A DNA stretch of 64,000 nucleotides from Paracyclopina nana (Eukaryota > Arthropoda > Copepoda > Cyclopoida > Cyclopettidae), in contig JAGUCH010000001.1 in assembly GCA_019096065.1 (NCBI GenBank), positions 11,036,001 to 11,100,000 of the forward strand. Direction: 5' to 3'. The notes below the pieces were generated by a model that was given only the letters and a program-made list of their open reading frames with translations, was not told the DNA's origin and ran no database searches. Position numbers and translations under genes: made by a program. This document shows positions 1 to 22,195 of the stretch, piece after piece. The first letter of the stretch is position 1. Every line of letters starts with the position of its first letter.

Positions 1-1588
1 TTTCTGATCACCACCCATCACCACCCAAGTATGAATTTCGTTTTGCCTCTTTTTTCCCAATCACCACCCATCACCACCCAAAATGATTTTGGATTTGGTC
101 TTTTTTTCTGATCACCACCCATCACCACCCAAACATAAATTTCGTTTTGCCTCTTTTTTCTCAATCACCACCCATCACCACCCAGATATGGATTTTGTTT
201 TGCCTCTTTTTTCCCAATCACCACCCATCACCACCCAGATATGAATTTCGTTTTGGCTCTTTTTTCCCAATCACCACCCATCACCACCCAAAATGATTTT
301 GGATTTGGTCTTTTTTTCTGATCACCACCCAAGTATGAATTTTGTTTTGGCTCTTTTTTCCCAATCACCACCCATCACCACCCAAAATGATTTTCGATTT
401 GGTCTTTTTTTTCTGATCACCACCCATCACCACCCAAGTATGAATTTCGTTTTGCCTCTTTTTTCCCAATCACCACCCATCACCACCCAAAATGATTTTG
501 GATTTGGTCTTTTTTTTCTGATCACCACCCATCACCACCCGAACATAAATTTCGTTTTGCCTCTTTTTTCCCAATCACCACCCATCACCAACCAAAATGA
601 TTTTGGATTTGGTCTTTTTTTTCTGATCACCACCCATCACCACCCAAACATAAATTTCGTTTTGCCTCTTTTTTTCTGATCACCACCCATCACCACCCAG
701 ATATGGATTTTGTTTTGCCTCTTTTTTCCCAATCACCACCCATCACCACCCAGATATGAATTTCGTTTTGGCTCTTTTTTCCCAATCACCACCCATCACC
801 ACCCAAAATGATTTTGGATTTGGTCTTTTTTTCTGATCACCACCCATCACCACCCGAACATAAATTTCGTTTTGCCTCTTTTTTCTCAATCACCACCCAT
901 CACCACCCAGATATGAATTTTGTTTTGCCTCTTTTTTCCCAATCACCACCCATCACCACCCTGATATGAATTTCGTTTTGCCTCTTTTTTCCCAATCACC
1001 ACCCAAAATGATTTTGGATTTGGTCTTTTTTTCTGATCACCACCCAAGTATGAATTTTGTTTTGGCTCTTTTTTCCCAATCACCACCCATCACCACCCAA
1101 AATGATTTTCGATTTGGTCTTTTTTTTCTGATCACCACCCATCACCACCCAAGTATGAATTTCGTTTTGCCTCTTTTTTCCCAATCACCACCCATCACCA
1201 ACCAAAATGATTTTGGATTTGGTCTTTTTTTTCTGATCACCACCCATCACCACCCAAACATAAATTTCGTTTTGCCTCTTTTTTTCTGATCACCACCCAT
1301 CACCACCCAGATATGGATTTTGTTTTGCCTCTTTTTTCCCAATCACCACCCATCACCACCCAGATATGAATTTCGTTTTGGCTCTTTTTTCCCAATCACC
1401 ACCCATCACCACCCAAAATGATTTTGGATTTGGTCTTTTTTTCTGATCACCACCCAAGTATGAATTTTGTTTTGACTCTTTTTTCCCAATCACCACCCAT
1501 CACCACCCAAAATGATTTTGGATTTGGTCTTTTTTTCTGATCACCACCCAAACATAAATTAGTTTTGCCTCTTTTTTCCCAATCACCT
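1..1588. repeat. Minisatellite A, left arm (53-bp units)
   Basis: Tandem units of about 53 bp. Each contains TCACCACCCATCACCACCCA followed by one of two spacers, either an ATGATTTTGGATTTGGTC type or an ATGAATTTCGTTTTGCCTC type with a T-rich tail. The two spacer types alternate irregularly, and longer blocks recur (the stretch near 293 reappears near 1,007). Open reading frames across it only follow the repeat and are not genes. The array starts before base 1 and ends near 1,588, where satellite B begins. The same array recurs inverted at 18,549-21,783. Confidence 0.97.
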
Positions 1589-3711
1589 TGTCACCTTGTC
1601 TCAAAGTAACAGCTGCAACTGACATTTTGACTCAAATTTGACTAGGACAAGAATTTCGAGTTATCTTTGCAGTTTAGTCGCAGTACACAATGCGAAAACT
1701 TGTGTATCACAAAATACTACAAAATAATTATGAAGAAAACAAAATTCTTGTTTCACAATATATCAGTTGCAGCTGATAGTTTGAGTCAACATGACTCAAA
1801 ATATGAGACAAAGTCAATGTCAAATGTTTGACTAATTTTGAATTTGCAATAGCGAAAACTTGCGCAACGAGGTATACTTCTACTAAACTGCAAAGAAAAC
1901 TCGAAATTCTTGTCCTAGTCAAATTTGAGTCAAAATGTCAGTTGCAGCTGTTACTTTGAGGCAAGTTGACTCTATATGTGAGGCAAAGACGAACTTGTGA
2001 CTCAATTTTGAATTTGCAATAGCGAAAACTTGCGCATTGCAGTATACTGCTAGTAAAATGCAAAGAAAGCACGAAATTCTTGACAAAGTCGATTTTGAGT
2101 CAAAATGTCAGTTGCAGCTGTTTCTTTGAAGCAAGTTGACTCTAAATGTGAGGCAAAGAAAAAAATATTTTACTCATTTTGAATTCGCAAGCGAAAACTT
2201 GCGCATCGCAGTATACTGCTAGTAAAATGCAAAAGAAAGCACGAAATTCTTGACAAAAGTCAAATTTGAGTCAAAATGTCAGTTGCAGCTGTTACTTTGA
2301 GACAAGTTGACTCTATATGTGAGGCAAAGACGAACTTGTGACTCAATATTGAATTTGCAATAGCGAAAACTTGCACATCACGGTATACAGCTGCAACTGA
2401 CATTTTGACTCAAATTTGACTAGGTCAAGAATTTCGTGCTTTCTTTGCATTTTACTAGCAGTATACTGCGATGCGCAAGTTTTCGCTTTTGCGAATTCAA
2501 AATGAGTAAAATATTTTTTCTTTGCCTCACATTTTAAGTCAACTTGCCTCAAAGAAACAGCTGCAACTGACATTTTGACTCAAAATCGACTTTGTCAAGA
2601 ATTTCGTGCTTTCTTTGCATTTTACTAGCAGTATACTGCGATGCGCAAGTTTTCGCTTTTGCGAATTCAAAATGAGTAAAATATTTTTTTTTTGCCTCAC
2701 ATTTAGAGTCAACTTGCTTCAAAGAAATAGCTGCAACTGACATTTTGACTCAAAATCGACTTTGTCAAGAATTTCGTGCTTTCTTTGCATTTTACTAGCA
2801 GTATACTGCAATGCGCAAGTTTTCGCTTTTACGAATTCAAAATGAGTAAAATATTTTTTTTTTTGCCTCACATTTAGAGTCAACTTGCTTCAAAGAAACA
2901 GCTGCAATTGACATATTGACTCAAAATCGACTACTAAATACCGCACACTACTTTTAATATTATATTGTATCGATAAACTAATCAAACTGGCTGAAGGATA
3001 ACAAAATTGGCTTACTAGCGAAGCAACAGAAAATCATTGTTTGACACTTACAAGCCTTTTTGACAGTGGTTCAAAAAGCCTTTTTCTCGGGCATGAGAAT
3101 TTCTGAATTAGTCGCCAAATTCTCATTTTGCCACCCAAAAAACTGCTATTGCCCAGTTCCATCAATGAAAATTAGTTTTCTGGCTTAAAACTAATTATTT
3201 AACTAGCAGTGTAAAGGGGAAACCGTACTTTGATCTACGTTTTAAGATCTACAGGGTGTTTATGTTTTATGATCTACGACCATATTTTTAAGATGTAAGG
3301 CTGAGTAGCTGGAGACAATTTTGTACCTGTGTTTTAAAGTCTATTGGTGTCTGTTTTAAGACATTTTGACTCAAATTTGACTAGGCCAAGAATTTCGCAT
3401 TTTTTTAGCAATTAATTAGAAGCATAACGCGATGCGCAAGTTTTCGCTTTTGCGAATTCAAAATGAGTAAAATATTTTTTCTTTGCCTCACATTTTAAGT
3501 CAACTTGCCTCAAAGAAATAGCTGCAACTGACATTTTGACTCAAATTTGACTAGGTCAAGAATTTCGTGCTTTCTTTGCATTTTACTAGCAGTATACTGC
3601 GATGCGCAAGTTTTCGCTTTTGCGAATTCAAAATGAGTCAAATATTTTTTCTTTGCCTCACATTTAGAGTCAACTTGCCTCAAAGAAACAGCTGCAACTG
3701 ACATTTTGAGG
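1589..3711. repeat. Satellite B, rearranged part with inversions and a unique spacer
   Basis: Monomers of satellite B (core words TTTTGACTCAAA, GCGCAAGTTTTCGC, AATGAGTCAAA, CAGCTGCAACTGACA) in mixed orientation. A forward unit lies at 1,600-1,700, reversed units at about 1,730-2,385, and forward units again from about 2,390. The switch near 2,385-2,395 is a head-to-head junction. Between about 2,935 and 3,360 is a non-repeated AT-rich spacer with scattered GATCTAC words and no coding sequence that I can see. Forward B units resume at about 3,361. Confidence 0.9.
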
Positions 3712-3873
3712 CAGTGGCCAGATATCCAGCGCACAGAATCCCCGAAATAGGCACGCCCGCATCCATTGAGCATCACAAACGAATCAAGCACAGAACACAG
3801 AATTCCCGAAATAAGCACGCCCGCATCCAATTAGCATCATGACTGCACAAAACACAGAATCCCCAAAATGGGC
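3712..3873. repeat. Repeat E, left copy (about 60-bp units)
   Basis: Three degenerate units of 57-64 bp, each beginning near CAGAATCCCCGAAAT (3,734, 3,798, 3,855) and carrying GCACGCCCGCATCCA. It opens with GCAGTGGCCAGATATCC. The same sequence appears reverse-complemented at 16,800-16,975 and again at 18,036-18,204, so E is inverted between the two halves of the block. Confidence 0.88.
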
Positions 3874-4268
3874 CCGCCGAAAAAAACCTTTGTCTTTCCT
3901 TTTGCGTCCTCACTGTACTCACCCAGAGCTGCTGGAAGCGACCCGGGCCGGCGTGCGCACCCAATGCCGAGGGACATGTAGCAAAAAAAAGCTTGGTCTT
4001 TCCTTTTGCGTCCTCACTGTGCTCACCCAGACCCGCTGGAAGCGAGCCGGGCCGGCGTGCTCACCCTACGCAAGCCAAAGCTTCCCGGGCGCGCGCGAGG
4101 GAGCTTTAGCAACAAAAAAAACTTGGTCTTTCCTTTCGCGTCCTCACTGTGCTCACCCAGACCCGCTGGCAGCCGGGCCAGGTGTGCGCACTCCAGCGCC
4201 GACCAAAGCTTTCCGGGCGCGCGCGCGAGGGACCTGTAGCAACAAAAAAACTTGGTCTTTCCTTTTGC
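3874..4268. repeat. GC-rich satellite D, short inverted left copy
   Basis: About three monomers of the GC-rich satellite D, reading CTTTCCTTTTGCGTCCTCAC on the plus strand. This is the reverse complement of the main D array at 13,930-16,790. Monomers are separated by A-tracts and contain (CG)n runs. It is bordered by repeat E on the left and satellite B on the right. Confidence 0.9.
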
Positions 4269-7200
4269 CATCCTCTTGCGAATTCAAATTGAGTCAAAAG
4301 TAACAGCTGACATTTTGACATTTTGACTCAAAGACTAGGTCAAGAATTTCGTTTTTTGCAGCTTAGTAGCAGTATACCACGGTGCGCAAGTTTTCGCTTG
4401 TTCGAATTCAAAATGAGTCAAATATTTTACTTTGCCTCACATTTAGGGTCAACTTGCCTCAATGTAACAGCTGCAACTGACATTTTGACTCAAATTTGAC
4501 TAGGTCAAGAATTTTGCGTTTTCCTTGCAGTTTAGCAGAAGTATACCACGGTGCGCAAGTTTTCGCTTTCGCGAATGCGAATTCAAAATGAGTCAAATAT
4601 TTTACTTTGTCTCACATTTAGGGTCAACTTGCCTCATTGTAACAGCTGCAACTGACATTTTGACTCAAATTTGACTAGGTCAAGAATTTCGTGTTTTGCA
4701 GCTTAGTAGCAGTATACCACGGTGCGCAAGTTTTCGCTTGTTCGAATTCAAAATGAGTCAAATATTTTACTTTGCCTCACATTTAGGGTCAACTTGCCTC
4801 AATGTAACAGCTGCAACTGACATTTTGACTCAAATTTGACTAGGTCAAGAATTTTGCGTTTTCCTTGCAGTTTAGCAGAAGTATACAACGGTGCGCAAGT
4901 TTTCGCTTTCGCGAATGCGAATTCAAAATGAGTCAAATATTTTACTTTGTCTCACATTTAGGGTCAACTTGCCTCATTGTAACAGCTGCAACTGACATTT
5001 TGACTCAAAGACTAGGTCAAGAATTTCGTTTTTTGCAGCTTAGTAGCAGTATACCACGGTGCGCAAGTTTTCGCTTGTTCGAATTCAAAATGAGTCAAAT
5101 ATTTTACTTTGCCTCACATTTAGGGTCAACTTGCCTCAATGTAACAGCTGCAACTGACATTTTGACTCAAATTTGACTAGGTCAAGAATTTTGCGTTTTC
5201 CTTGCAGTTTAGCAGAAGTATACCACGGTGCGCAAGTTTTCGCTTTCGCGAATGCGAATTCAAAATGAGTCAAATATTTTACTTTATCTCACATTTAGGG
5301 TCAACTTGCCTCATTGTAACAGCTGCAACTGACATTTTGACTCAAATTTGACTAGGTCAAGAATTTCGTGTTTTCTTTGCAGCTTAGTAGCAGTATACCA
5401 CGGTGCGCAAGTTTTCGCTTTTGCGAATTCAAAATGAGTCAAATATTTTACTTTGCCTCACATTTAGGGTCAACTTGCCTCAATGTAACAGCTGCAACTG
5501 ACATTTTGACTCAAATTTGACTAGGTCAAGAATTTCGTGTTTTCTTTGCAGCTTAGTAGCAGTATACCACGGTGCGCAAGTTTTCGCTTTTGCGAATTCA
5601 AAATGAGTCAAATATTTTACTTTGCCTCACATTTAGGGTCAACTTGCCTCAAAGTAACAACTGCAACTGACATTTTGACTCAAATTTGACTAGGGCAAGA
5701 ATTATGTGTCTTCTTTGCAGTTTAGCAGAAGTGTACCACGGTGCGCAAGTTTTCGCTTTTGCGAATTCAAAATGAGTCAAATATTTTACTTTGCCTCACA
5801 TTTAGGGTCAACTTGCCTCAAAGTAACAGCTGCAACTGACATTTTGACTCAAATTTGACTAGGGCAAGAATTTCGCGTTTTCCTTGCAGTTTAGCAGAAG
5901 CATACCACGGTGCGCAAGTTTTCGCTTTTGCGAATTCAAAATGAGTCAAATATTTTACTTTGCCTCACATTTAGGGTCAACTTGCCTCAATGTAACAGCT
6001 GCAACTGACATTTGACTCAAATTTGACTAGGTCAAGAATTTCGTGTTTTCTTTGCAGCTTAGTAGCAGTATACCACGGTGCGCAAGTTTTCGCTTTTACT
6101 GGAATTCAAAATGAGTCAAATATTTTACTTTGCCTCACATTTAGGGTCAACTTGCCTCCAATGTAACAGCTGCAACTGACATTTTGACTCAAATTTGACT
6201 AGGTCAAGAATTTAGTGTTTTCTTTGCAGCTTAGTAGCAGTATACCACGGTGCGCAAGTTTTCGCTTTTGCGAATTCAAAATGAGTCAAATATTTTACTT
6301 TGCCTCACATTTAGGGTCAACTTGCCTCAAAGTAACAACTGCAACTGACATTTTGACTCAAATTTGACTAGGGCAAGAATTATGTGTCTTCTTTGCAGTT
6401 TAGCAGAAGTGTACCACGGTGCGCAAGTTTTCGCTTTTGCGAATTCAAAATGAGTCAAATATTTTACTTTGCCTCACATTTAGGGTCAACTTGCCTCAAA
6501 GTAACAGCTGCAACTGACATTTTGACTCAAATTTGACTAGGTCAAGAATTTTGCGTTTTCCTTGCAGTTTAGCAGAAGTATACCACGGTGCGCAAGTTTT
6601 CGCTTTCGCGAATGCGAATTCAAAATGAGTCAAATATTTTACTTTGCCTCACATTTAGGGTCAACTTGCCTCAAAGTAACAGCTGCAACTGACATTTTGA
6701 CTCAAATTTGACTAGGGCAAGAATTTCGTGTTTTCTTTGCAGCTTAGTAGCAGTATACCACGGTGCGCAAGTTTTCGCTTTTGCGAATTCAAAATGAGTC
6801 AAATATTTTACTTTGCCTCACATTTAGGGTCAACTTGCCTCAAAGTAACAACTGCAACTGACATTTTGACTCAAATTTGACTAGGGCAAGAATTATGTGT
6901 CTTCTTTGCAGTTTAGCAGAAGTATACCACGGTGCGCAAGTTTTCGCTTTCGCGAATGCGAATTCAAAATGAGTCAAATATTTTACTTTGCCTCACATTT
7001 AGGGTCAACTTGCCTCAAAGTAACAGCTGCAACTGACATTTTGACTCAAAGACTAGGGCAAGAATTTCGCGTTTTCCTTGCAGTTTAGCAGAAGCATACC
7101 ACGGTGCGCAAGTTTTCGCTTTTGCGAATTCAAAATGAGTCAAATATTTTACTTTGCCTCACATTTAGGGTCAACTTGCCTCAAAGTAACAGCTGCAACT

Positions 7201-7975
7201 GACATTTTGACTCAAATTTGACTAGGGCAAGAATTTTGCGTTTTCCTTGCAGTTTAGCAGAAGTATACCACGGTGCGCAAGTTTTCGCTTTCGCGAATGC
7301 GAATTCAAAATGAGTCAAATATTTTACTTTGCCTCACATTTAGGGTCAACTTGCCTCAAAGTAACAGCTGCAACTGACATTTTGACTCAAATTTGACTAG
7401 GGCAAGAATTTCGCGTTTTCCTTGCAGTTTAGCAGAAGTATACCACGGTGCGCAAGTTTTCGCTTTTGCGAATTCAAAATGAGTCAAATATTTTACTTTG
7501 CCTCACATTTAGGGTCAACTTGCCTCAAAGTAACAGCTGCAACTGACATTTTGACTCAAAGACTAGGGCAAGAATTACGTGTCTTCTTTGCTGCTTAGTA
7601 GCAGTTTACTGCAATGCGCAAGTTTTCGCTCTTGCGAATTCAAAATGAGTCAAATATTTTACTTTGCCTCACATTTAGGGTCAACTTGCCTCAAAGTAAC
7701 AGCTGCAACTGACATTTTGACTCAAATTTGACTAGGTCAAGAATTTTGCGTTTTCCTTGCAGTTTAGCAGAAGTATACCACGGTGCGCAAGTTTTCGCTT
7801 TCGCGAATGCGAATTCAAAATGAGTCAAATATTTTACTTTGCCTCACATTTAGGGTCAACTTGCCTCAAAGTAACAGCTGCAACTGACATTTTGACTCAA
7901 ATTTGACTAGGTCAAGAATTTCGCGTTTTCCTTTCAGTTAAGCAGAAGTATACTGCGATGCTCAAGTTTTGCTTT
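4269..7975. repeat. Satellite B main array (~169-bp monomer, ~341-bp dimer)
   Basis: About 22 head-to-tail monomers. The spacing between successive GACATTTTGACTC words is 169 bp at 5,500, 5,669 and 5,838. In the first kilobase two variants alternate: TTCGCTTGTTCGAATTC at 4,396, 4,737 and 5,079, and CGCTTTCGCGAATGCGAATT at about 4,566, 4,908 and 5,250. This gives a dimeric higher-order repeat of about 341 bp. Every monomer holds a TTCGC-TTTT-GCGAA style hairpin and two TGASTCA words. No gene is present. Confidence 0.96.
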
Positions 7976-10900
7976 TTTTTCACATGACTAGTCTCCTAGT
8001 GCAAAATGCTAACATAAACTAGCATTTTTTTTGGCAACTTTTTTTAGCTAGGAGCGGAATTCGCGTAACGTGAATAATTGCATGAGCAAAATTGCACTTT
8101 TTGACAAAGGCCAAACTTTGGTCTTTGTTTCATCTAGTTTTGACAGGACTAGTCTCCTAGTGCCAAAACTAACTGAAATTAGCATATTTTTGGCAACTTT
8201 TTTGAGCTAGGAGCGGAACTCGCGTAACGTGAAAAATTGCCAAAGTGAAATTGCATTTTTTGACAAAGGCCAAAATTAAGCCTTTGCTTCACCTAGTTTT
8301 GACCAGACTAGTCTCCTAGTGCAATAACTAACTGAAACTAGCATATTTTTTGGCGACTTTTTTGAACTGAGAGCGAAACTCGCGTAACGTGAATAATTAC
8401 TGGAGCAAAATTGCATTTTTTGACAAAGGCCAAAATTAAGCCTTTGCTTCTCCTAGTTTTGACCAGACTAGTCTCCTAGTGCAAAAACTAACTGAAACTA
8501 GCATATTTTTTGGCGACTTTTTTGAACTGGGAGCGAAACTCGCGTTACGTGAATAATTATTGGAGCAAAATGGCATTTTTTGACAGAGGCCAAACTTTGG
8601 TCTTTGTTTCACCTAGTTTTGACAGGACTAGTCTCCTAGTGCCAAAACTAACTGAAATTAGCATATTTTTTGGCGACTTTTTTGAACTGAGAGCGAAACT
8701 CGCATAACGTGAATAATTACTGGAGCAAAATTGCATTTTTTGACAAAGGCCAATATTAAGCCTTTGCTTCTCCTAGTTTTGACCAGACTAGTCTCCTAGT
8801 GCAAAAACTAACTGAAACTAGCATATTTTTTGGCGACTTTTTTGAACTGGGAGCGAAACTCGCGTTACGTGAATAATTATTGGAGCAAAATGGCATTTTT
8901 TGACAAAGGCCAAACTTTGGTCTTTGTTTCATCTAGTTTTGACAGGACTAGTCTCCTAGTGCCAAAACTAACTGAAACTAGCATATTTTTTGGCAACTTT
9001 TTTGAGCCAGGAGCGGAACTCGCGTAACATGAAAAATTGCTAGAGTGAAATTGCATCTTTTGACAGAGGCCAAACTTTGGTCTTTGTTTCACCTAGTTTT
9101 GACAGGACTAGTCTCCTAGTGCAAAATGCTAACAGAAACTAGCATTTTTTTTTGGCAACTTTTTTGAGCTAGGAGCGGAATTCGCGTAACGTGAATAATT
9201 GCATGAGCAAAATTGCACTTTTTGACAAAGGCCAAACTTTGGTCTTTGTTTCACCTAGTTTTGACAGGACTAGTCTCCCTGTGCCAAAACTAACTGAAAT
9301 TAGCATATTTTTGGCAACTTTTTTGAGCTAGGAGCGGAACTCGCGTAACGTGAAAAATTGCCAAAGTGAAATTGCATTTTTTGACAAAGGCCAAAATTAA
9401 GCCTTTGCTTCACCTAGTTTTGACCAGACTAGTCTCCTAGTGCAATAACTAACTGAAACTAGCATATTTTTTGGCGACTTTTTTGAACTGAGAGCGAAAC
9501 TCGCGTAACGTGAATAATTAATGGAGCAAAATTACATTTTTTGACAAAGGCCAACATTAAGCCTTGGCTTCTCCTAGTTTTGACCAGATTGGTCTCCTAG
9601 TGCAAAAACTAACTGAAACTAGCATATTTTTTGGCGACTTTTTTGAACTGGGAGCGAAACTCGCGTAACGTGAATAATTACTGGAGCAAAATTGCATTTT
9701 TTGACAAAGGCCAAAATTAAGCCTTTGCTTCTCCTAGTTTTGACCAGACTAGTCTCCTAGTGCAAAAACTAACTGAAACTAGCATATTTTTTGGCGACTT
9801 TTTTGAACTGGGAGCGAAACTCGCGTAACGTGAATAACTATTGGAGCAAAATTGCATTTTTTGACAAAGGCCAAAATTAAGCCTTTGCTTCTCCTAGTTT
9901 TGACCAGACTAGTCTCCTAGTGCAAAAACTAACTGAAACTAGCATATTTTTTGGCGACTTTTTTGAACTGGGAGCGAAACTCGCGTTACGTGAATAATTG
10001 CCAGAGCAAAATTGCATTTTTTGACAAAGGCCAAACTTTGGTCTTTGTTTCATCTAGTTTTGACCAGACAAGTCTCCTAGTGCCAAAACTAACTGAAATT
10101 AGCATATTTTTTGGCTACTTTTTTGAACTGGGAGCGAAACTCGCGTAACGTGAATAATTATTGGAGCAAAATTGCATTTTTTGACAAAGGCCAAAATTAA
10201 GCCTTTGCTTCACCTAGTTTTGACCAGACTAGTCTCCTAGTGCAAAAACTAACTGAAACTAGCATATTTTTTGGCGACTTTTTTGAACTGGGAGCGAAAC
10301 TCGCGTTACGTGAATAATTATTGGAGCAAAATGGCATTTTTTGACAAAGGCCAAACTTTGGTCTTTGTTTCACCTAGTTTTGACAGGACTAGTCTCCTAG
10401 TGCCAAAACTAACTGAAACTAGCATATTTTTTGGCAACTTTTTTGAGCCAGGAGCGGAACTCGCGTAACATGAAAAATTGCTAGAGTGAAATTGCATCTT
10501 TTGACAGAGGCCAAACTTTGGTCTTTGTTTCACCTAGTTTTGACAGGACTAGTCTCCTAGTGCAAAATGCTAACATAAACTAGCATTTTTTTTGGCAACT
10601 TTTTTTAGCTAGGAGCGGAATTCGCGTAACGTGAATAATTGCATGAGCAAAATTGCACTTTTTGACAAAGGCCAAACTTTGGTCTTTGTTTCATCTAGTT
10701 TTGACAGGACTAGTCTCCTAGTGCCAAAACTAACTGAAATTAGCATATTTTTTGGCAACTTTTTTGAGCTAGGAGCGGAATTCGCGTAACGTGAAAAATT
10801 GCATGAGCAAAATTGCACTTTTTGACAAAGGCCAAAGTTTGGTCTTTCTTTCACCTAGTTTTGACCAGACAAGTCTCCTAGTGCTAAAACTAACTGAAAC

Positions 10901-13890
10901 TAGCATATTTTTTGGCGACTTTTTTGAACTGAGAGCGAAACTCGCGTAACGTGAATAATTAATGGAGCAAAATTGCATTTTTTGACAAAGGCCAAAATTA
11001 AGCCTTGGCTTCTCCTAGTTTTTACCAGATTGGTCTCCTAGTGCAAAAACTAACTGAAATTAGCATATTTTTTGGCGACTTTTTTGAACTGAGAGCGAAA
11101 CTCGCATAACGTGAATAATTACTGGAGCAAAATTGCATTTTTTGACAAAGGCCAATATTAAGCCTTTGCTTCTCCTAGTTTTGACCAGACTAGTCTCCTA
11201 GTGCAAAAACTAACTGAAACTAGCATAATTTTTGGCGACTTTTTTGAACTGAGAGCGAAACTCGTGTAACGTGAATAATTACTGGAGCAAAATTGCATTT
11301 TTTGACAAAGGCCAAACTTTGGTCTTTGTTTCACCTAGTTTTGACAGGACTAGTCTCCTAGTGCCAAAACTAACTGAAATTAGCATATTTTTGGCAACTT
11401 TTTTGAGCTAGGAGCGGAACTCGCGTAACGTGAATAATTACTGGAGCAAAATTGCATTTTTTGACAAAGGCCAAACTTTGGTCTTTGTTTCATCTAGTTT
11501 TGACCAGACTAGTCTCCTAGTGCCAAAACTAACTGAAATTAGCATATTTTTTGGCAACTTTTTTGAGCTAGGAGCGAAACTCGCGTAACGTGAATAATTG
11601 GCAGAGCAAAATTGAATTTTTGACAAAGGCCAAAGTTTGGCCTTTCTTTCACCTAGTTTTGACCAGACAAGTCTCCAAGTGCTAAAACTAACTGAAACTA
11701 GCATATTTTTTGGCGACTTTTTTGAACTGAGAGCGAAACTCGCGTAGCGTGAATAATTACTGGAGCAAAATTGCACTTTTTGACAAAGGCCAAACTTTGG
11801 TCTTTGTTTCATCTAGTTTTGACAGGACTAGTCTCCTAGTGCCAAAACTAACTGAAATTAGCATATTTTTTGGCAACTTTTTTGAGCTAGGAGCGGAATT
11901 CGCGTAACGTGAATAATTGCATGAGCAAAATTGCACTTTTTGACAAAGGCCAAACTTTGGTCTTTGTTTCACCTAGTTTTGACAGGACTAGTCTCCTAGT
12001 GCCAAAACTAACTGAAATTAGCATATTTTTTGGCAACTTTTTTGAGCTAGGAGCGGAATTCGCGTAACGTGAATAATTGCATGAGCAAAATTGCACTTTT
12101 TGACAAAGGCCAATTTTTGGTCTTTGTTTCACCTAGTTTTGACAGGACTAGTCTCCCTGTGCCAAAACTAACTGAAATTAGCATATTTTTGGCAACTTTT
12201 TTGAGCTAGGAGCGGAACTCGCGTAACGTGAAAAATTGCCAAAGTGAAATTGCATTTTTTGACAAAGGCCAAAATTAAGCCTTTGCTTCACCTAGTTTTG
12301 ACCAGACTAGTCTCCTAGTGCAATAACTAACTGAAACTAGCATATTTTTTGGCGACTTTTTTGAACTGAGAGCGAAACTCACGTAACGTGAATAATTAAT
12401 GGAGCAAAATTGCATTTTTTGACAAAGGCCAAAATTAAGCCTTGGCTTCTCCTAGTTTTTACCAGATTGGTCTCCTAGTGCAAAAACTAACTGAAACTAG
12501 CATATTTTTTGGCGACTTTTTTGAACTGGGAGCGAAACTCGCGTAACGTGAATAATTACTGGAGCAAAATTGCATTTTTTGACAAAGGCCAAAATTAAGC
12601 CTTTGCTTCTCCTAGTTTTGACCAGACTAGTCTCCTAGTGCAAAAACTAACTGAAACTAGCATATTTTTTGGCGACTTTTTTGAACTGGGAGCGAAACTC
12701 GCGTTACGTGAATAATTATTGGAGCAAAATGGCATTTTTTGACAAAGGCCAAACTTTGGTCTTTGTTTCATCTAGTTTTGACCAGACTAGTCTCCTAGTG
12801 CAAAAACTAACTGAAACTAGCATATTTTTTGGCGACTTTTTTGAACTGAGAGCGAAACTCGCGTAACGTGAATAATTAATGGAGCAAAATTGCATTTTTT
12901 GACAAAGGCCAAAATTAAGCCTTTGCTTCTCCTAGTTTTGACCAGACTAGTCTCCTAGTGCAAAAACTAACTGAAACTAGCATATTTTTTGGCGACTTTT
13001 TTGAACTGGGAGCGAAACTCGCGTTACGTGAATAATTATTGGAGCAAAATGGCATTTTTTGACAAAGGCCAAACTTTGGTCTTTGTTTCATCTAGTTTTG
13101 ACAGGACTAGTCTCCTAGTGCCAAAACTAACTGAAACTAGCATATTTTTTGGCAACTTTTTTGAGCCAGGAGCGGAACTCGCGTAACATGAAAAATTGCT
13201 AGAGTGAAATTGCATCTTTTGACAGAGGCCAAACTTTGGTCTTTGTTTCACCTAGTTTTGACAGGACTAGTCTCCTGGTGCAAAATGCTAACAGAAACTA
13301 GCATTTTTTTTTGGCAACTTTTTTGAGCTAGGAGCGGAATTCGCGTAACGTGAATAATTGCATGAGCAAAATTGCACTTTTTGACAAAGGCCAAACTTTG
13401 GTCTTTGTTTCACCTAGTTTTGACAGGACTAGTCTCCCTGTGCCAAAACTAACTGAAACTTGCATATTTTCTGGCAACTTTTTTGAGCTAGGAGCGGAAC
13501 TCGCGTAACGTGAAAAATTGCCAGAGTGAAATTGCATTTTTTGACAAAGGCCAAACTTTGGTCTTTGTTTCACCTAGTTTTCACAGGACTAGTCTCCTAG
13601 TGCAAAGACAAACTGAAACTTGCATATTTTCTGGCAACTTTTTTGAGCTAGGAGCGGAACTCGCGTAACGTGAAAAATTGCCAGAGTGAAATTGCATTTT
13701 TTGACAAAGGCCAAACTTTGGTCTTTGTTTCACCTAGTTTTGACCAGACTAGTCTTCCAGTGCAAAATGCTGAAATGTAGCATATTTTTTGGCCACTTTT
13801 TTGAGCTAGAAGCAATATTTCGCGTAATGTTTGGCCTGTTCATCTAGTTTTGACAGAACTAGTCTCCTAGTGCGAAACTCCGGTTATGTG
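7976..13890. repeat. Satellite C array (~160-bp monomer)
   Basis: About 37 head-to-tail monomers of 159-162 bp, counted from successive GACCAGACTAGTCTCC-type words at 9,101, 9,263, 9,422 and 9,582. Each monomer has GAGCTAGGAGCGGAACTCGC, CGTAACGTGAATAATT, an imperfect inverted repeat ACAAAGGCCAAA/TTTGGTCTTTGT, and a short palindrome ACTAG-TCTC-CTAGT. Larger duplicated blocks are visible: the segment at 8,830-9,092 recurs at 10,271-10,533 (offset 1,441) and at 12,989-13,251 (offset 2,718). There are open frames of 65-130 codons on both strands, but they drift with the repeat and are not supported as genes. Confidence 0.96.
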
Positions 13891-13929
13891 ACCATTCACT
13901 GATAAAAATTACATATTTTATACAGGCAA

Positions 13930-16790
13930 GAAGGAAAGTCAATGTTTTTTTTGTTGCTAGAGGGTCCTCGCGACTGCTCTCGCGCGCCCGAGAATCTTTG
14001 GCTGGCGTTGGGTGCGCACGCCGGCCCGGCTCGCTTCCAGCGGGTCTGGGTGAGCACAGTGAGGACGCGAAAGGAAAGACTAAGTTTTTTTGTTGCTGCA
14101 GGTCCCTCGCGCGCGCGCGCCCGGGAAGCTTTGGTCAGCGTTGGGTGCGCACGCCGGCCCGGCTCGCTTCCAGCGGGTCTGGGTGAGCACAGTGAGGACG
14201 CGAAAGGAAAGACCAAGTTTTTTTTTCGCTAGAGCGCCGGGCGCGCGCTCGCGCGGTAAGCTTTTGCTTGCGTAGGGTGAGCACGCCGGCCCGGCTCGCT
14301 TCCAGCGGGTCTGGGTGAGCACAGTGAGGACGCGAAAGGAAAGACTAAGTTTTTTTGTTGCTGCAGGTCCCTCGCGCGCGCGCGCCCGGGAAGCTTTGGT
14401 CAGCGTTGGGTGCGCACGCCGGCCCGGCTCGCTTCCAGCAGGTCTGGGTGAGCACAGTGAGGACGCGAAAGGAAAGACCAAGTTTTTTTTTCGCTAGAGC
14501 GCCGGGCGCGCGCTCGCGCGGTAAGCTTTTGCTTGCGTAGGGTGAGCACGCCGGCCCGGCTCGCTTCCAGCGGGTCTGGGTGAGCACAGTGAGGACGCGA
14601 AAGGAAAGACTAAGTTTTTTTGTTGCTGCAGGTCCTCGCGCGCGCGCCCGGGAAGCTTTGGTCAGCGTTGGCGCGCACGCCGGCCCGGCTCGCTTCCAGC
14701 GGGTCTGGGTGAGCACAGTGAGGACGCGAAAGGAAAGACCAAGTTTTTTTTTCGCTAGAGCGCCGGGCGCGCGCTCGCGCGGTAAGCTTTTGCTTGCGTA
14801 GGGTGAGCACGCCGGCCCGGCTCGCTTCCAGCGGGTCTGGGTGAGCACAGTGAGGACGCGAAAGGAAAGACTAAGTTTTTTTGTTGCTGCAGGTCCCTCG
14901 CGCGCGCGCGCCCGGGAAGCTTTGGTCAGCGTTGGGTGCGCACGCCGGCCCGGCTCGCTTCCAGCAGGTCTGGGTGAGCACAGTGAGGACGCGAAAGGAA
15001 AGACCAAGTTTTTTTTCGCTAGAGCGCCGGGCGCGCGCTCGCTGATAGCTTTTGCTTGCGTAGGGTGAGCACGCCGGCCCGGCTCGCTTCCAGCGGGTCT
15101 GGGTGAGCACAGTGAGGACGCGAAAGGAAAGACTAAGTTTTTTTGTTGCTGCAGGTCCCTCGCGCGCGCGCGCCCGGGAAGCTTTGGTCAGCGTTGGGCG
15201 CGCACGCCGGCCCGGCTCGCTTCCAGCGGGTCTGGGTGAGCACAGTGAGGACGCGAAAGGAAAGACCAAGTTTTTTTTTCGCTAGAGCGCCGGGCGCGCG
15301 CTCGCGCGGTAAGCTTTTGCTTGCGTAGGGTGAGCACGCCGGCCCGGCTCGCTTCCAGCGGGTCTGGGTGAGCACAGTGAGGACGCGAAAGGAAAGACTA
15401 AGTTTTTTTGTTGCTGCAGGTCCCTCGCGCGCGCGCGCCCGGGAAGCTTTGGTCAGCGTTGGGCGCGCACGCCGGCCCGGCTCGCTTCCAGCAGGTCTGG
15501 GTGAGCACAGTGAGGACGCGAAAGGAAAGACCAAGTTTTTTTTTCGCTAGAGCGCCGGGCGCGCGCTCGCGCGGTAAGCTTTTGCTTGCGTAGGGTGAGC
15601 ACGCCGGCCCGGCTCGCTTCCAGCGGGTCTGGGTGAGCACAGTGAGGACGCGAAAGGAAAGACTAAGTTTTTTTGTTGCTGCAGGTCCCTCGCGCGCGCC
15701 CGGGAAGCTTTGGTCAGCGTTAGCGCGCCACGCCGGCCCGGCTCGCTTCCAGCGGGTCTGGGTGAGCACAGTGAGGACGCGAAAGGAAAGACCAAGTTTT
15801 TTTTTCGCTAGAGCGCCGGGCGCGCGACGGCGCCGTGGCGCTGTATGATATAAGCTTTGCTTGCGTAGGGTGAGCACGCCGGCCCGGCTTGGCTTCCAGC
15901 CCGGGTCTGGGTGAGCACAGTGAGGACGCGAAAGGAAAGACTAAGTTTTTTTGTTGCTGAAGGTCCTGCACGCCAGGAAGCTTTGGTCAGCGTTAGGTGC
16001 ACGCCGCCCGGCCAGCTCGCTTCCAGCGGGTCTGGGTGAGCACAGTGAGGACGCGAAAGGAAAGACCAAGTTTTTTTTTCGCTAGAGCGCCGGGCGCGCG
16101 CTCGCGCGGTAAGCTTTTGCTTGCGTAGGGTGAGCACGCCGGCCCGGCTCGCTTCCAGCGGGTCTGGGTGAGCACAGTGAGGACGCGAAAGGAAAGACTA
16201 AGTTTTTTTGTTGCTGCAGGTCCCTCGCGCGCGCGCGCCCGGGAAGCTTTGGTCAGCGTTGGGCGCGCACGCCGGCCCGGCTCGCTTCCAGCGGGTCTGG
16301 GTGAGCACAGTGAGGACGCGAAAGGAAAGACCAAGTTTTTTTTTCGCTAGAGCGCCGGGCGCGCGCTCACGCGGGAAGCTTTTGCTTGCGTAGGGTGCGC
16401 ACGCCGGCCCGGCTCGCATCCAGCGGGTCTGGGTGAGCACAGTGAGGACGCGAAAGGAAAGACCAAGTTTTTTTGTTGCTACAGGTCCCTCGCGCGCGCG
16501 CGCGCCCGGCAAGCTTTAATCGGCGTTGGGTGCGCACGCTGGCCCGGCTCGCTTCCAGCGGGTTTGGGTGAGCACAGTGAGGACGCGAAAGGAAAGACCA
16601 AGTTTTTTTGTTGCTACAGGTCCCTCGCGCGCGCGCGCCCGGGAAGCTTTGGTCGGCGTTTGGTGAGGACGCCAGCCCGGGTCGCTTCAAGCGGCTCTGG
16701 GTGAGCACAGTGAGGACGCGGAAGGAAAGACAAAGTTTTTTTATTGTTTGAGGGCCCTACGCAGACCGCTAAGCCTTGGCGCCCGGTAAG
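13930..16790. repeat. GC-rich satellite D main array (132/133-bp subunits, ~265-bp dimer)
   Basis: About eleven dimers of two alternating subunits. Each subunit ends in GGGTGAGCACAGTGAGGACG followed by CGAAAGGAAAGAC and a T-tract. One subunit continues with TTGTTGCTGCAGGTCCCTCG, a (CG)5-7 run and CCCGGGAAGCTTTGG. The other continues with TTCGCTAGAGCGCCGGGCGC and AAGCTTTTGCTTGCGTAGGG. Measured spacings are 133 and 132 bp. Base composition is strikingly GC- and CpG-rich against AT-rich neighbours. Long open frames (up to 220 codons) exist only because the unit lacks stop codons in several frames. Confidence 0.96.
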
Positions 16791-16799
16791 CTTTTGGTG

Positions 16800-16975
16800 G
16801 CGCTGGGTTAGCCCGTTTTTCTTGGGATTCCTGTGTTTCCTTTTTGTGATGTTCAGTTGCGGGCGAGCCCATTTCGGGCATTCTGTGTGCTGTGACTTCT
16901 TGCATTTGTGATGCTCAATGAATGCGGGCGTGCCTATTTCGGGGATTCTGTGCGCTGGATATCTGGCCACTGCCC
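16800..16975. repeat. Repeat E, right copy 1 (inverted relative to 3,712-3,873)
   Basis: Contains ATGCTCAATGAATGCGGGCG, CCTATTTCGGGGATTCTGTG and ATATCTGGCCACTGCC, the reverse complement of the left E copy. It joins directly to a satellite B unit at 16,976. Confidence 0.88.
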
Positions 16976-17930
16976 ATTTTGACTCAAAATCGACTTTGTC
17001 AAGAATTTCGAATTTTATTAGCAATTAATTAGAAGCATAACGCGATTCGCAAGTTTTCGCTCTTGCGAATTCAAAATGAGTCAAGAGTTTGACTTTGCCT
17101 CAAATTTTGAGTCCACTTAAATCAAACTATCAACTGCAACTGACATTTTGACTCAAAATTGACTTTGTCAAGAATTTCGCATTTTTTTAGCAATTAATTA
17201 GAAGCATAACGCGATGCGCAAGTTTTCGCTCTTGCGAATTCAAAATGAGTCAATAGTTTGACTTTGCCTCAAATTTTGAGCAATTTTTTTGAGCTGGGAG
17301 CGTAATTGCCGGAGCGAAATTGAATTTTTCACAAAGGCCAAACTTTTGCTTTTTTCACCTAGTTTTGACAGGACTAGTCTCCTAGTGCAAAATGCTAAAT
17401 GAAAACCAGCATATTTATAGGCAATTTTTTTGAGCTAGGAGCCAAAGTCGCGTAACGTGAATAATTAGCAAAATTGAATTTTTTCACAAAGGCCAAACTT
17501 TTGCCTCCCTTTCACCTAGTTTTGACAGGACAAGTCTCCTAGTGCCAAAACTAACTGAAAACTAGGATATTTATTGGCAACTTTTTTGAGCTAGGAGCGA
17601 AAATCGCGTAATGTGAATAATTGCCAATGCGAAATTGCAGTTTCTGACAAAGGCCAAAGTTTGGTCTTTTTTTTCCTAGTTTTGACAGGACTAGTCCCCT
17701 GCTGCAAAATGCTAGCTGAAAACTAGCATATTTTCTGGCAACTTTTTTGAGCTAGGAGCAAAACTCGCACCACGTGAACAATTGCCAATGCGAAATTGCA
17801 TTTTTTGAAAAAGGCCAAAGTTTGGTCTTTTTTTACCTAGTTTTGATAGGACTAATCTCCTAGTGCAAAATGCTAGCTGAAAACTAGCATGTTTTTTGCC
17901 AACTTTTTGAGCTAGGAGCTTTAGGTGGCT
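16976..17930. repeat. Degenerate satellite B then satellite C units
   Basis: About two diverged B monomers (16,976-17,280) are followed by about four diverged C monomers (17,281-17,930). Both are in the same orientation as the main arrays. The C units still carry GGACTAGTCTCCTAGTGC and GAGCTAGGAGC but differ from each other more than those at 8-13.9 kb, so they look older. Confidence 0.88.
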
Positions 17931-18204
17931 TTTGGTGAGGACGCTGGCCCGGGTCGCTTCCAGCGGCTCTGGGTTATGTTGCTACAGGTCCCTCGCGCTA
18001 GCGCGCCCGCCCAGGAAGCTTTGGTCGGCCTTAGGACAGCCATTTTTTCTTGGGATTGCTGTGTTTCCTTTTGATGCTCAATCGCGGGCGTGCCCATTTC
18101 GGTAATTCTGTGTGCTGTGATTTCTTGTCTTATTTGTGATGCTCAATGAATGCGGGCGTGCCTATTTCGGGGATTCTGTGCGCTGGATATCTGGCCACTG
18201 CCCT
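17931..18204. repeat. Satellite D fragment plus repeat E, right copy 2
   Basis: A single D fragment (GGGTCGCTTCCAGCGGCTCT, then GTTGCTACAGGTCCCTCGCG) is followed by a second E copy that again ends in ATATCTGGCCACTGCC. This repeats the D-E-B order seen at 16.6-17.0 kb, so part of the right side looks duplicated. Confidence 0.85.
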
Positions 18205-18548
18205 TTGAGTCAAAACTCGAAATTATTGACATTTTCAAAAACTCAAAATGTCAGTTGCAGCTGTTACTTAATGGCAAGTTGACTCTAAATTTGAGGCAAA
18301 ATCAAACGAAAACGCGAAATTCTTTGAAAAAGCTAAGCTAGGGTAAAAATAGCTAAGCAAACGCTCAACATTTCAAGCAAAGTAGCTGCTTTTTGTGAAT
18401 GTTGAGCGAAAAAACCAGTTTTCGTTGCATAATTTTTACCTTAGCTTAGCTATTTTTTCCTTAGCTCAGCTTTTACCTGCAATATGAGAACGGCCAAGTA
18501 ATGGCTGATAATTTGAGGCAACTTGACTCTAAATGTGAGGCAGAACCA
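18205..18548. repeat. Satellite B remnants flanking a nested palindrome
   Basis: Reversed B sequence occupies 18,205-18,310 and a short B piece 18,500-18,545. Between them lies a two-level palindrome (18,332-18,450). The outer arms are GCTAAGCTAGGGTAAAAAT and ATTTTTACCTTAGCTTAGC; the inner arms are CGCTCAACATT and AATGTTGAGCG. A related sequence occurs at 38,382-38,480. Confidence 0.85.
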
Positions 18549-21500
18549 GGTTGGTAATGGGTGATGCATGAGAAAAAAGAGGCAAAACGAAATTCATATC
18601 TGGGTGGTGATGGGTGGTGATTGGGAAAAAAGAGGCAAAACGAAATTCATATCTGGGTGGTGATGGGTGGTGATTGGGAAAAAAGAGACAAAACGAAATT
18701 CATATCAGGGTGGTGATGGGTGGTGATTGGGAAAAAAGAGGCAAAACAAAATTCATATCTGGGTGGTGATGGGGGGTGATTGAGAAAAAAGAGGCAAAAC
18801 AAAATCCATATCTGGGTGGTGATGGGTGGTGATCAGAAAAAAAGAGGCAAAACGAAATTTATGTTTGGGTGGTGATGGGTGGTGATCAGAAAAAAAAGAC
18901 CAAATCCAAAATCATTTTGGGTGGTGATGGGTGGTGATTGGGAAAAAAGAGGCAAAACGAAATTGATACTTGGGTGGTGATGGGTGGTGATCAGAAAAAA
19001 AAGACCAAATCGAAAATCATTTTGGGTGGTGATGGGTGGTGATTGGGAAAAAAGAGCCAAAACAAAATTCATACTTGGGTGGTGATCAGAAAAAAAGACC
19101 AAATCCAAAATCATTTTGGGTGGTGATGGGTGGTGATTGGGAAAAAAGAGGCAAAACGAAATTCATATCAGGGTGGTGATGGGTGGTGATTGGGAAAAAA
19201 GAGGCAAAACAAAATTCATATCTGGGTGGTGATGGGTGGTGATTGAGAAAAAAGAGGCAAAACGAAATTTATGTTTGGGTGGTGATGGGTGGTGATCAGA
19301 AAAAAAGACCAAATCCAAAATCATTTTGGGTGGTGATGGGTGGTGATTGGGAAAAAAGAGCCAAAACGAAATTCATATCTGGGTGGTGATGGGTGGTGAT
19401 TGGGAAAAAAGAGGCAAAACAAAATTCATATCTGGGTGGTGATGGGTGGTGATTGAGAAAAAAGAGGCAAAACGAAATTTATGTTTGGGTGGTGATGGGT
19501 GGTGATCAGAAAAAAAAGACCAAATCCAAAATCATTTTGGGTGGTGATGGGCGGTGATTGGGAAAAAAGTGGCAAAACAAAATTCATATCTGGGTGGTGA
19601 TGGGTGGTGATTGAGAAAAAAGAGGCAAAACGAAATTTATGTTTGGGTGGTGATGGGTGGTGATCAGAAAAAAAAGACCAAATCCAAAATCATTTTGGGT
19701 GGTGATGGGTGGTGATTGGGAAAAAAGAGGCAAAACGAAATTTATGTTTGGGTGGTGATGGGTTGTGATCAGAAAAAAAAGACCAAATCCAAAATCATTT
19801 TGGGTGGTGATGGGTGGTGATTGGGAAAAAAGAGGCAAAACAAAATTCATATCTGGGTGGTGATGGGTGGTGATTGGGAAAAAAGAGGCAAAACAAAATT
19901 TATGTTTTGGTGGTGATGGGTGGTGATCAGAAAAAAAAGACCAAATCCAAAATCATTTTGGGTGGTGATGGGTGGTGATTGGGAAAAAAGAGGCAAAACA
20001 AAATTTATGTTTTGGTGGTGATGGGTGGTGATCAGAAAAAAAAGACCAAATCCAAAATCATTTTGGGTGGTGATGGGTGGTGATTGGGAAAAAAGAGCCA
20101 AAACAAAATTCATACTTGGGTGGTGATGGGTGGTGATCAGAAAAAAAGACCAAATCCAAAATCATTTTGGGTGGTGATGGGTGGTGATTGAGAAAAAAGA
20201 GGCAAAACGAAATTCATATCAGGGTGGTGATCAGAAAAAAAGACCAAATCCAAAATTATTTTGGGTGGTGATGGGCGGTGATTGGGAAAAAAGAGGCAAA
20301 ACAAAATTCATATCTGGGTGGTGATGGGTGGTGATTGGGAAAAAAGTGGCAAAACAAAATTCATACTTGGGTGGTGATGGGTGGTGATCAGAAAAAAAGA
20401 CCAAATCGAAAATCATTTTGGGTGGTGATGGGTGGTGATTGAGAAAAAAGAGGCAAAACGAAATTCATATTTGGGTGGTGATGGGTGGTGATCAGAAAAA
20501 AAGACCAAATCCAAAATCAGTTTGGGTGGTGATGGGTGGTGATCAGAAAAAAAGACCAAATCCAAAATCAAATTTGGGTGGTGATTGGTGGTGATTGGGA
20601 AAAAAGAGGCAAAAACGAAATTCATATTTGGGTGGTGATGGGTGGTGATCAGAAAAAAAGACCAAATCCAAAATCATTTTGGGTGGTGATGGGTGGTGAT
20701 CAGAAAAAAAAGACCAAATCCAAAATCATTTTGGGTGGTGATGGGCGGTGATTGGGAAAAAAGAGGCAAAACAAAATTCATATCTGGGTGGTGATGGGTG
20801 GTGATTGAGAAAAAAGAGGCAAAACGAAATTTATGTTTTGGTGGTGATGGGTGGTGATCAGAAAAAAAAGACCAAATCCAAAATCATTTTGGGTGGTGAT
20901 GGGCGGTGATTGGGAAAAAAGTGGCAAAACAAAATTCATACTTGGGTGGTGATGGGTGGTGATCAGAAAAAAAGACCAAATCCAAAATCATTTTGGGTGG
21001 TGATGGGTGGTGATTGGGAAAAAAGAGGCAAAACGAAATTCATATCAGGGTGGTGATGGGTGGTGATTGGGAAAAAAGAGGCAAAACAAAATCCATATCT
21101 GGGTGGTGATGGGTGGTGATTGAGAAAAAAGAGGCAAAACGAAATTTATGTTTGGGTGGTGATGGGTGGTGATCAGAAAAAAAGACCAAATCCAAAATCA
21201 AATTTGGGTGGTGATTGGTGGTGATTGGGAAAAAAGAGGCAAAAACGAAATTCATATTTGGGTGGTGATGGGTGGTGATCAGAAAAAAAGACCAAATCCA
21301 AAATCATTTTGGGTGGTGATGGGTGGTGATCAGAAAAAAAAGACCAAATCCAAAATCATTTTGGGTGGTGATGGGCGGTGATTGGGAAAAAAGAGGCAAA
21401 ACAAAATTCATATCTGGGTGGTGATGGGTGGTGATTGAGAAAAAAGAGGCAAAACGAAATTTATGTTTGGGTGGTGATGGGTGGTGATCAGAAAAAAAAG

Positions 21501-21783
21501 ACCAAATCCAAAATCATTTTGGGTGGTGATGGGCGGTGATTGGGAAAAAAGTGGCAAAACAAAATTCATACTTGGGTGGTGATGGGTGGTGATCAGAAAA
21601 AAAGACCAAATCCAAAATCATTTTGGGTGGTGATGGGTGGTGATTGGGAAAAAAGAGGCAAAACGAAATTCATATCAGGGTGGTGATGGGTGGTGATTGG
21701 GAAAAAAGAGGCAAAACAAAATTCATATCTGGGTGGTGATGGGTGGTGATTGAGAAAAAAGAGGCAAAACGAAATTTATGGTT
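18549..21783. repeat. Minisatellite A, right arm (inverted relative to the left arm)
   Basis: About 60 units of the ~53-bp minisatellite read as the reverse complement of 1-1,588 (TGGGTGGTGATGGGTGGTGA on the plus strand). A 630-bp block is duplicated inside it: the sequence at 20,536-20,751 recurs unchanged in translation at 21,166-21,381. The array stops abruptly at about 21,783 in unique AT-rich sequence, 413 bp downstream (in gene direction) of the last visible transporter exon. Confidence 0.96.
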
Positions 21784-22195
21784 GGGAAAGAAAAATTGAG
21801 ATTTTTTGTGCTCTGCTATTGACCTCATAGGAATTTCAGGTTTTTTGTGTTCTTTCATATGAAATCTATGTCAATTTGAGCATTTTTGTGCGCTGAACAT
21901 GAGAGTGTTACCGAAAAATACCAGAAAATGAGATTAGTACTACATCAACCCAACGCATGATATGTGCACAGAACAACCCCAAAGTTATTTGTGAGTTAGA
22001 GTATTAGTCCCAACATCTAAATACTGTTAGCTTTTCTCTAAGTTTACCCATGTTGCAAAGCCAGTATAATTGATCAAGGCATAAATATTGGAACTTGAGA
22101 GGTAAACTAGTGACAAAAAGGCCTGAAAAAAGTTTTGGAGCGCCAATTTCAAAATGCAGAATTAAATCAAAAAGCTTATAAAGTTAATCATTTAC
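21784..22195. other. AT-rich sequence between satellite block and transporter exon 4
   Basis: No repeat and no exon recognised here on either strand. The next transporter exon (the ninth membrane helix onwards) would be expected on the minus strand beyond the donor at 22,195, but I cannot find it in this stretch. Confidence 0.6.

Follow-up and report, generated by a model that had tools for sequence, protein, structure and literature searches.

Among described mobile elements, Tetris of Drosophila virilis is the nearest in kind to the system reported here. According to the available portion of its description (PMC4079207), Tetris is an apparently non-autonomous foldback element composed of a tip, an arm of tandem repeats and a variable middle; it is flanked by target-site duplications (TSDs) of 8-10 bp, its transposase was not found, and amplification of its 220-bp arm repeats yields satellite arrays with as many as 66 copies. 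The same portion presents a single family, with just one type of repeat and with inverted ends of at most 1,735 bp, whereas the elements analysed here show several arm units, unrelated core satellites, four families with like tips, and nesting. They were studied from a 64,000-bp stretch of the copepod Paracyclopina nana (hereafter the window; C1:11,036,001-11,100,000, C1 being contig JAGUCH010000001.1 of a 92-Mb genome in 10 contigs), which opens on a large block of satellites. This block is almost certainly a non-autonomous foldback-type DNA transposon of 23.3 kb, designated family A, into which a 13.3-kb foldback element of a second family, D, has been inserted.

Other known systems share parts of this organization. 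Galileo, of the P superfamily, has long inverted ends with tandem repeats that expand and contract, as well as non-autonomous copies, but the consulted part of its report (PMC3573991) gives TSDs of 7 bp, inverted ends ranging from 18 bp up to about 1.26 kb, and coding copies. Tm1 of Meloidogyne (PMC3169594) and Muta1 of Aedes (PMC5225508) also combine tip motifs with short tandem repeats in their inverted ends, TSDs of 8-10 bp and many non-autonomous derivatives; as far as the excerpts of both reports go, they differ by their size (about 0.17-3.2 kb), by repeats of about 12-15 bp and by a Mutator-like element (MULE) transposase encoded in some copies. Non-coding elements with satellite-like central arrays, in modular combinations with different flanks, are described in the section seen on the oyster Cg_HINE non-autonomous Helentrons (PMC7492417). 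The foldback layout is likewise that of the Drosophila FB elements, the Ising transposable element (TE) and the sea urchin TU elements, which were not compared here by sequence. The sea urchin TU foldbacks have a modular layout. In the excerpts at hand, sea urchin foldbacks are named (PMC4079207), and the Ising TE is presented as a composite, hundreds of kb long, that is carried between foldback elements (PMC6431247); very large foldback composites are thus known, and mere size is no novelty. Those parts of the FB, Ising and TU descriptions mention neither a cargo of satellites only nor several linked families. What differs here is a body made wholly of unrelated satellites, several families with like tips and common cores, nesting, and sister copies with traceable array change. 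No description of these families was found in the open-access full-text literature.

Tandem arrays in the window were located by Tandem Repeats Finder. A preliminary description of this DNA had noticed a minisatellite, A, in opposite orientation at both ends of the block, at 1-1,588 and 18,549-21,783, and our positions (1-1,587 and 18,552-21,776) are close to these. Leftwards, array A does not run on for many kb but stops at C1:11,034,728, about 1.27 kb outside the window. Beyond this outer edge stands a 133-bp tip starting GGTAACACTCTCATG / GGTAACACTCTCATGTTCAGCGCAC, and beyond the right array stands the inverted tip, 98% identical to the left one. Directly outside both tips lies an exact 8-bp TSD, GAAAAATA. 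The right boundary proposed at 21,783 lies close to the end of the array, but the element itself ends at 21,912, about 130 bp further, and the right TSD copy starts at 21,913 instead of 21,784. From left to right, the element consists of a tip that starts with GG, an arm of minisatellite, a core of satellites, an inverted arm and an inverted tip (Table 1).

The inner inverted repeats have another origin. In line with the inversion of E and D noted earlier, the 64-bp repeat E and the 130-bp repeat D at 3,732-4,268 face an inverted D array and D-type tips on the right, and the centre is occupied by three satellites with units of 169, 160 and 133 bp (Table 1). The earlier foldback reading treated the block as one symmetric whole; the foldback stands, but the inverted E and D repeats are those of another, complete foldback element that lies inside it. 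Locus L039 on C2 displays inverted D arrays, a tip GGCAGTGGCCAGATATCCAGCGCACAGAAT, E-like repeats, a 160-bp core and a TSD GATTTTAG. Since the same tip also occurs at window 3,710 (+) and 16,974 (-), with CATTTTGA flanking both, the window contains a two-ended D element nested in the 169-bp satellite of the A element.

Table 1. Features of the composite element and related repeats (window positions unless a contig is given).
Feature	Coordinates	Strand	Remarks
Outer A-family foldback element	1..21912		starts 1,403 bp left of the window (C1:11,034,598); 23,315 bp; tips and TSD
Minisatellite A, 52/53-bp unit	1..1588	+	inner part of left arm
169/170-bp satellite units	1756..2932		orientation switch near 2,390
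169/170-bp satellite	3360..3709	+	hosts the nested element
Left TSD of nested D element	3702..3709	+	CATTTTGA
Nested D-family foldback element	3710..16974		13,265 bp; both tips
Left D tip	3710..3735	+	GGCAGTGGCCAGATATCCAGCGCACA
Repeat E, 64-bp unit	3732..3859	+	repeating part of tip region
Left D arm, 130-bp GC-rich unit	3968..4268	+	2.3 copies
169-bp satellite array	4297..7976	+	21.7 copies
160-bp satellite array	7986..13804	+	36.4 copies
Right D arm, 133-bp unit	13981..16746	-	20.9 copies, inverted
Right D tip	16949..16974	-	
Right TSD of nested D element	16975..16982	+	CATTTTGA
169-bp satellite	16975..17280	+	1.8 copies
160-bp satellite	17303..17919		3.9 copies
D tip	18177..18202	-	partnerless in the window copy; present in the C8 sister too
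Right arm, minisatellite A inverted	18549..21779	-	61.8 copies
Right A tip	21780..21912	-	133 bp
Right TSD of outer element	21913..21920	+	GAAAAATA
169-bp +...- pair	C1 412,875-420,163		
169-bp +...- pair	C1 2,447,978-2,455,870		
169-bp +...- pair	C1 8,364,459-8,370,497		
169-bp +...- pair	C1 11,464,360-11,470,913		
169-bp +...- pair	C2 17,428,533-17,435,933		

The A tip is found at 29 places in the genome, which form 14 +/- pairs, the window's included, plus a lone left end on C9, no right tip having been returned there by the own-genome tip search. A pattern search allowing up to three mismatches recovered these 29 and four more, each at three mismatches, against 2 in the reversed control. 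The foldback reading proposed earlier for the block is therefore borne out by the outer edge of array A, by the exact TSD and by the further A pairs. Tips are 98-100% identical in three pairs, among which is the window copy; those of the 11 pairs of subfamily II are 77-79% identical to the window tip. In all 11, bases 10-12 read CTC at one end and CCC at the other, which indicates that the two ends retain their identity between copies. Nine A copies that were read consist of a tip, a 52/53-bp arm, satellites and an inverted arm (the C9 copy without right tip), and their core satellites vary greatly in kind and number. A tenth copy of 4,025 bp is nested within the arm of one of these nine, on C8, and has its own TSD, CTTTTTTT. 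A one-way A-like array, 75-77% identical and without tip in these searches, lies at C8 3,591,596-3,600,009 and may be a relic. Phage records gave no match to the A tip.

Long terminal inverted repeats built of tandem repeats were seen in four families, A, D, G and H (the right end of H lies outside the stretch read), with arm units of 53, about 131, 9/27 and 19 bp, respectively. All have GG-starting tips and cores of 169- and/or 160-bp units. Allowing one mismatch at most, a search for GG, 15 unspecified bases and then CAGCGCACANAAT gave 132 places (2 in the reversed control), and the 100 of these that were listed comprise A, D, the third family G, their variants and chance-like matches. At locus L042, the arms of the G element are built of 9/18/27-bp units, its core contains both 169- and 160-bp units, and its TSD is AATTAGCG. 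H has the tip GGCCGCGACTGCATAGGCAGGGATC and 19-bp arm units, with both 169- and 160-bp units in the core at locus L043; its tip occurs 46 times at up to three mismatches and never in the reversed control. One A copy on C2 and one on C3 each harbour an inserted H copy, the TSDs being TGCTGCTA and GAATTTTT. Placing the 16 H pairs at random would put 0.03 inside A elements where 2 are observed, an excess that may reflect preference or mere tolerance. Locus L044, with 38.9 copies of the 160-bp unit, had no recognised tip within the stretch read.

Flanks were examined for 29 insertions, of which 14 belong to family A, 7 to D, 6 to G and 2 to H. For D and G, ten pairs were chosen from the tip list while their flanks were still unseen and represent a sample, like the two H pairs out of 16; in the A copy of L037/L038 the tips are worn and the cut was placed by hand. 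All 29 insertions show an exact 8-base TSD and none longer. When flanks were mispaired, 0 of 812 combinations matched in all eight bases and four matched in at least seven. The duplicated bases lean towards C/G at position 1 (21 of 29), A at 2 (16), A/T at 3-6, T at 7 (19) and G/C at 8 (17), without a strict site. Two-ended copies with exact 8-bp TSDs are hence present at many sites, and the nested D copy has a TSD of its own.

An A copy of 19,889 bp on C8, in reverse orientation to the window copy, is a near-matching sister. Identity between the two is 100% in the tips, 99.1% across 2,191 bp spanning the left D junction and 99.9% across 881 bp on the other side; shorter common stretches reach 97-98%, and the arms, at 90-93%, lie below the remainder. 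The target sites differ, the TSD being GTTGCGTC on C8 and GAAAAATA in the window. Array lengths, as assembled, differ greatly: 36.4+3.9 units of 160 bp in the window versus 5.3+3.9 on C8, and 21.7 units in the main 169-bp array versus about 51 on C8, where a short foreign stretch stands inside. The window's right D arm and tip are missing from the C8 copy and two 160-bp arrays adjoin there, an arrangement that would fit a deletion between two arrays of the same kind. Because the left D junction is common to both sisters at different target sites, the D insertion most likely predates their split, and the composite would have moved as a unit. If long reads confirm the differences between the sisters, the growth and loss of satellites inside transposons could become directly datable.

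How such elements may move can be outlined. A DDE transposase encoded elsewhere would bind the tips, through the GG end and a subterminal box CAGCGCACA present in A, D and G, and would insert the element at a cut with an 8-bp stagger. The arrays would expand and contract by unequal exchange or slippage, deletions would occur between like arrays, and the non-coding arrays would tolerate further insertions, by which families nest and swap satellites as cargo; the composite of A with nested D could be carried along in the same way. A 19-base motif starting at base 22 is common to the A, D and G tips; in comparisons between families, 12, 14 and 16 of its 19 bases agree. This motif was picked after inspection. 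Extra copies are found in the tip region: A has two (a number reached in 3 of 2,000 shuffles), and D and G have one apiece (141 and 113 of 2,000, respectively). By analogy with the repeated binding sites shown or proposed for Galileo (PMC3573991) and proposed for Tetris (PMC4079207) in the parts of these reports consulted, the motif is a putative repeated binding site.

Other explanations were weighed against this one. The preliminary description had also considered a satellite block rearranged by inversion and never mobile. Satellites do recombine, and the 169-bp units switch orientation near window 2,390, but exact 8-bp TSDs at 29/29 insertions, an identical tip layout at 14 A pairs and a near-matching sister at another site make such an immobile block extremely improbable, and the TSDs, barring assembly errors in them, rule out inversion without mobility. 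The inverted tips and the 8-bp TSDs also speak against a Helentron, since Helentrons transpose by a rolling circle and are not known to have inverted arms and TSDs of this kind. The array-length differences between the sisters might be ascribed to assembly errors instead of real turnover, as arrays of units about 90-95% similar are difficult to assemble and no reads were at hand. The junctions differ as well, however, the right D arm and tip with its TSD being present in the window copy and absent on C8, which renders an artefact rather unlikely. An autonomous element hidden in the core was rejected too for the nine A copies read. Their longest open frames (up to 12 of at least 90 codons listed per copy, judged by eye) are satellite frames with no transposase; Pfam gave nothing for a small number of other frames, about 100-270 codons long, and six A-copy frames compared with Pfam gave two weak matches, both below cut-offs.

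A transposase acting in trans was looked for elsewhere in the genome. A MULE enzyme is a reasonable candidate that stays short of probable. Five MULE matches occur in the genome, of which locus L041 has inverted arrays of 15-bp units and L045 has tandem units of about 25 bp in inverted ends, with a candidate 10-bp TSD and tips alike at only 6/12 bases. MULEs have been suggested for Tetris and are backed by coding copies for Tm1 and Muta1, and their TSDs are typically of 8-10 bp according to the part of PMC5225508 seen. A TSD of 8 bp in 29/29 cases fits the MULE range of 8-11 bp but is not specific to it; the sections consulted report variable TSDs for Tm1 (8-10 bp) and Muta1 (8 or 9 bp), and GG tips were found at 0/5 MULE loci fetched. 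A transposase of the P superfamily, as for Galileo, is a more doubtful alternative. P elements make 8-bp TSDs, and 11 P-type RNase H domain matches were obtained, the three best each with an internal stop. Around the three P-type loci fetched there was no convincing pair of tips with TSD, and Galileo itself, a P-superfamily element with foldback-like ends, makes 7-bp TSDs in the excerpt available (PMC3573991). A tip and TSD scan of the five MULE and three P-type loci gave weak candidates at 8/8 (best 10/14 tip bases) and 0 in one control stretch, none of which was taken as real. Precedent favours a MULE and the fixed TSD length a P-type enzyme, neither being shown. The hAT dimerisation domain had 0 matches in the genome, its controls being silent as well; hAT ends are unlike the GG-starting tips seen here. 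Merlin was set aside with 0 IS1595-type transposase matches in the genome, in a search where 1/14 controls, an archaeon, was positive and which a diverged or unassembled enzyme would escape. The enzyme could also come from a group so far unlinked to foldback elements. The reading that we retain is that of elements moved in trans by a predicted DDE transposase.

Two side observations concern these loci. In the small MULE loci L041 (3,354-4,983) and L045 (about 2,512-4,661), the stop-to-stop frames are 415 and 410 codons long. A 29/63-bp minisatellite, much alike at both places, stands beside a MULE locus (L040 2,586-2,837) and a P-type locus (L048 595-1,405).

The distribution of the core satellites bears on the origin and spread of satellite DNA. 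The tip list covers C1-C4 in full and C5 up to 7.39 Mb, and tip pairs make up 0.6% of C1-C5 DNA. Among the clusters listed by satellite searches on these contigs, 18/25 of the 160-bp satellite and 11/32 of the 169-bp satellite fall inside tip pairs, versus 0.14 and 0.18 expected from coverage. We tentatively suggest that much dispersed satellite DNA of this genome may be transposon DNA: a single transposase, acting in trans, would recognise at least four foldback families by a brief tip code common to them, satellites would be the sole cargo of these families, nesting would pass arrays between families so that the arms of one become the core of another, and new arrays would grow within the lifetime of near-identical sisters.

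Several points weigh against the main explanation of the block. The H tip lacks both the CAGCGCACA box and the motif, with one weak match on the other strand, so that one enzyme for all four families is not established; moreover, no transposase with these tips was found, and none of the MULE and P-type domain matches genome-wide falls in a listed tip pair, though the assembly may be missing an autonomous copy. A D tip that the C8 sister carries (element base 7,944-7,969) is absent from the window copy, from which it follows that the history comprised more than one deletion. Outside the listed tip pairs stand 7/25 of the 160-bp and 21/32 of the 169-bp clusters, hence the four families do not explain all satellite sites. 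Array lengths are those of the assembly, interiors were read for nine of the 14 paired A copies, and the evidence for insertion comes from occupied sites. Ten of the 21 outside 169-bp clusters form five +...- pairs, 6-8 kb across (Table 1), which suggests a possible fifth foldback family with 169-bp arms. Nested inverted arrays of such size are also likely sites of rearrangement.

The window further encodes animal-like genes, with a phospholipase C frame whose best match is PLC-epsilon and an amino-acid permease frame, and Rfam gave no match within it. On the minus strand, the right flank of the element holds a frame AFLSLVYLSSSNIYALINYTGFATW at window ~22,045-22,122, and the left flank holds a similar frame, ALLSLFYLCSSNIFALINYVGFATW, 19 bp from the element and after a splice-acceptor-like CAG (L009 ~4,500-4,578). 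A stretch resembling a permease C-terminus lies further left, and the window frame at 22,627-23,085 matches amino-acid permeases. Judged from these frames and from sequence motifs, the element appears to be intronic in an SLC7-like gene and to have a version of the same exon on either side. These versions are possibly mutually exclusive exons parted by a 23-kb intronic foldback. Left of the element, a 3.6-kb stretch (L009 680-4,239; C1:11,030,680-11,034,239) has 750-bp inverted repeats that are 97.3% identical, with 539 bp identical throughout, and is perhaps another inverted-repeat element. A 62/123-bp tandem repeat is located outside the element, at window 45,150-45,533.

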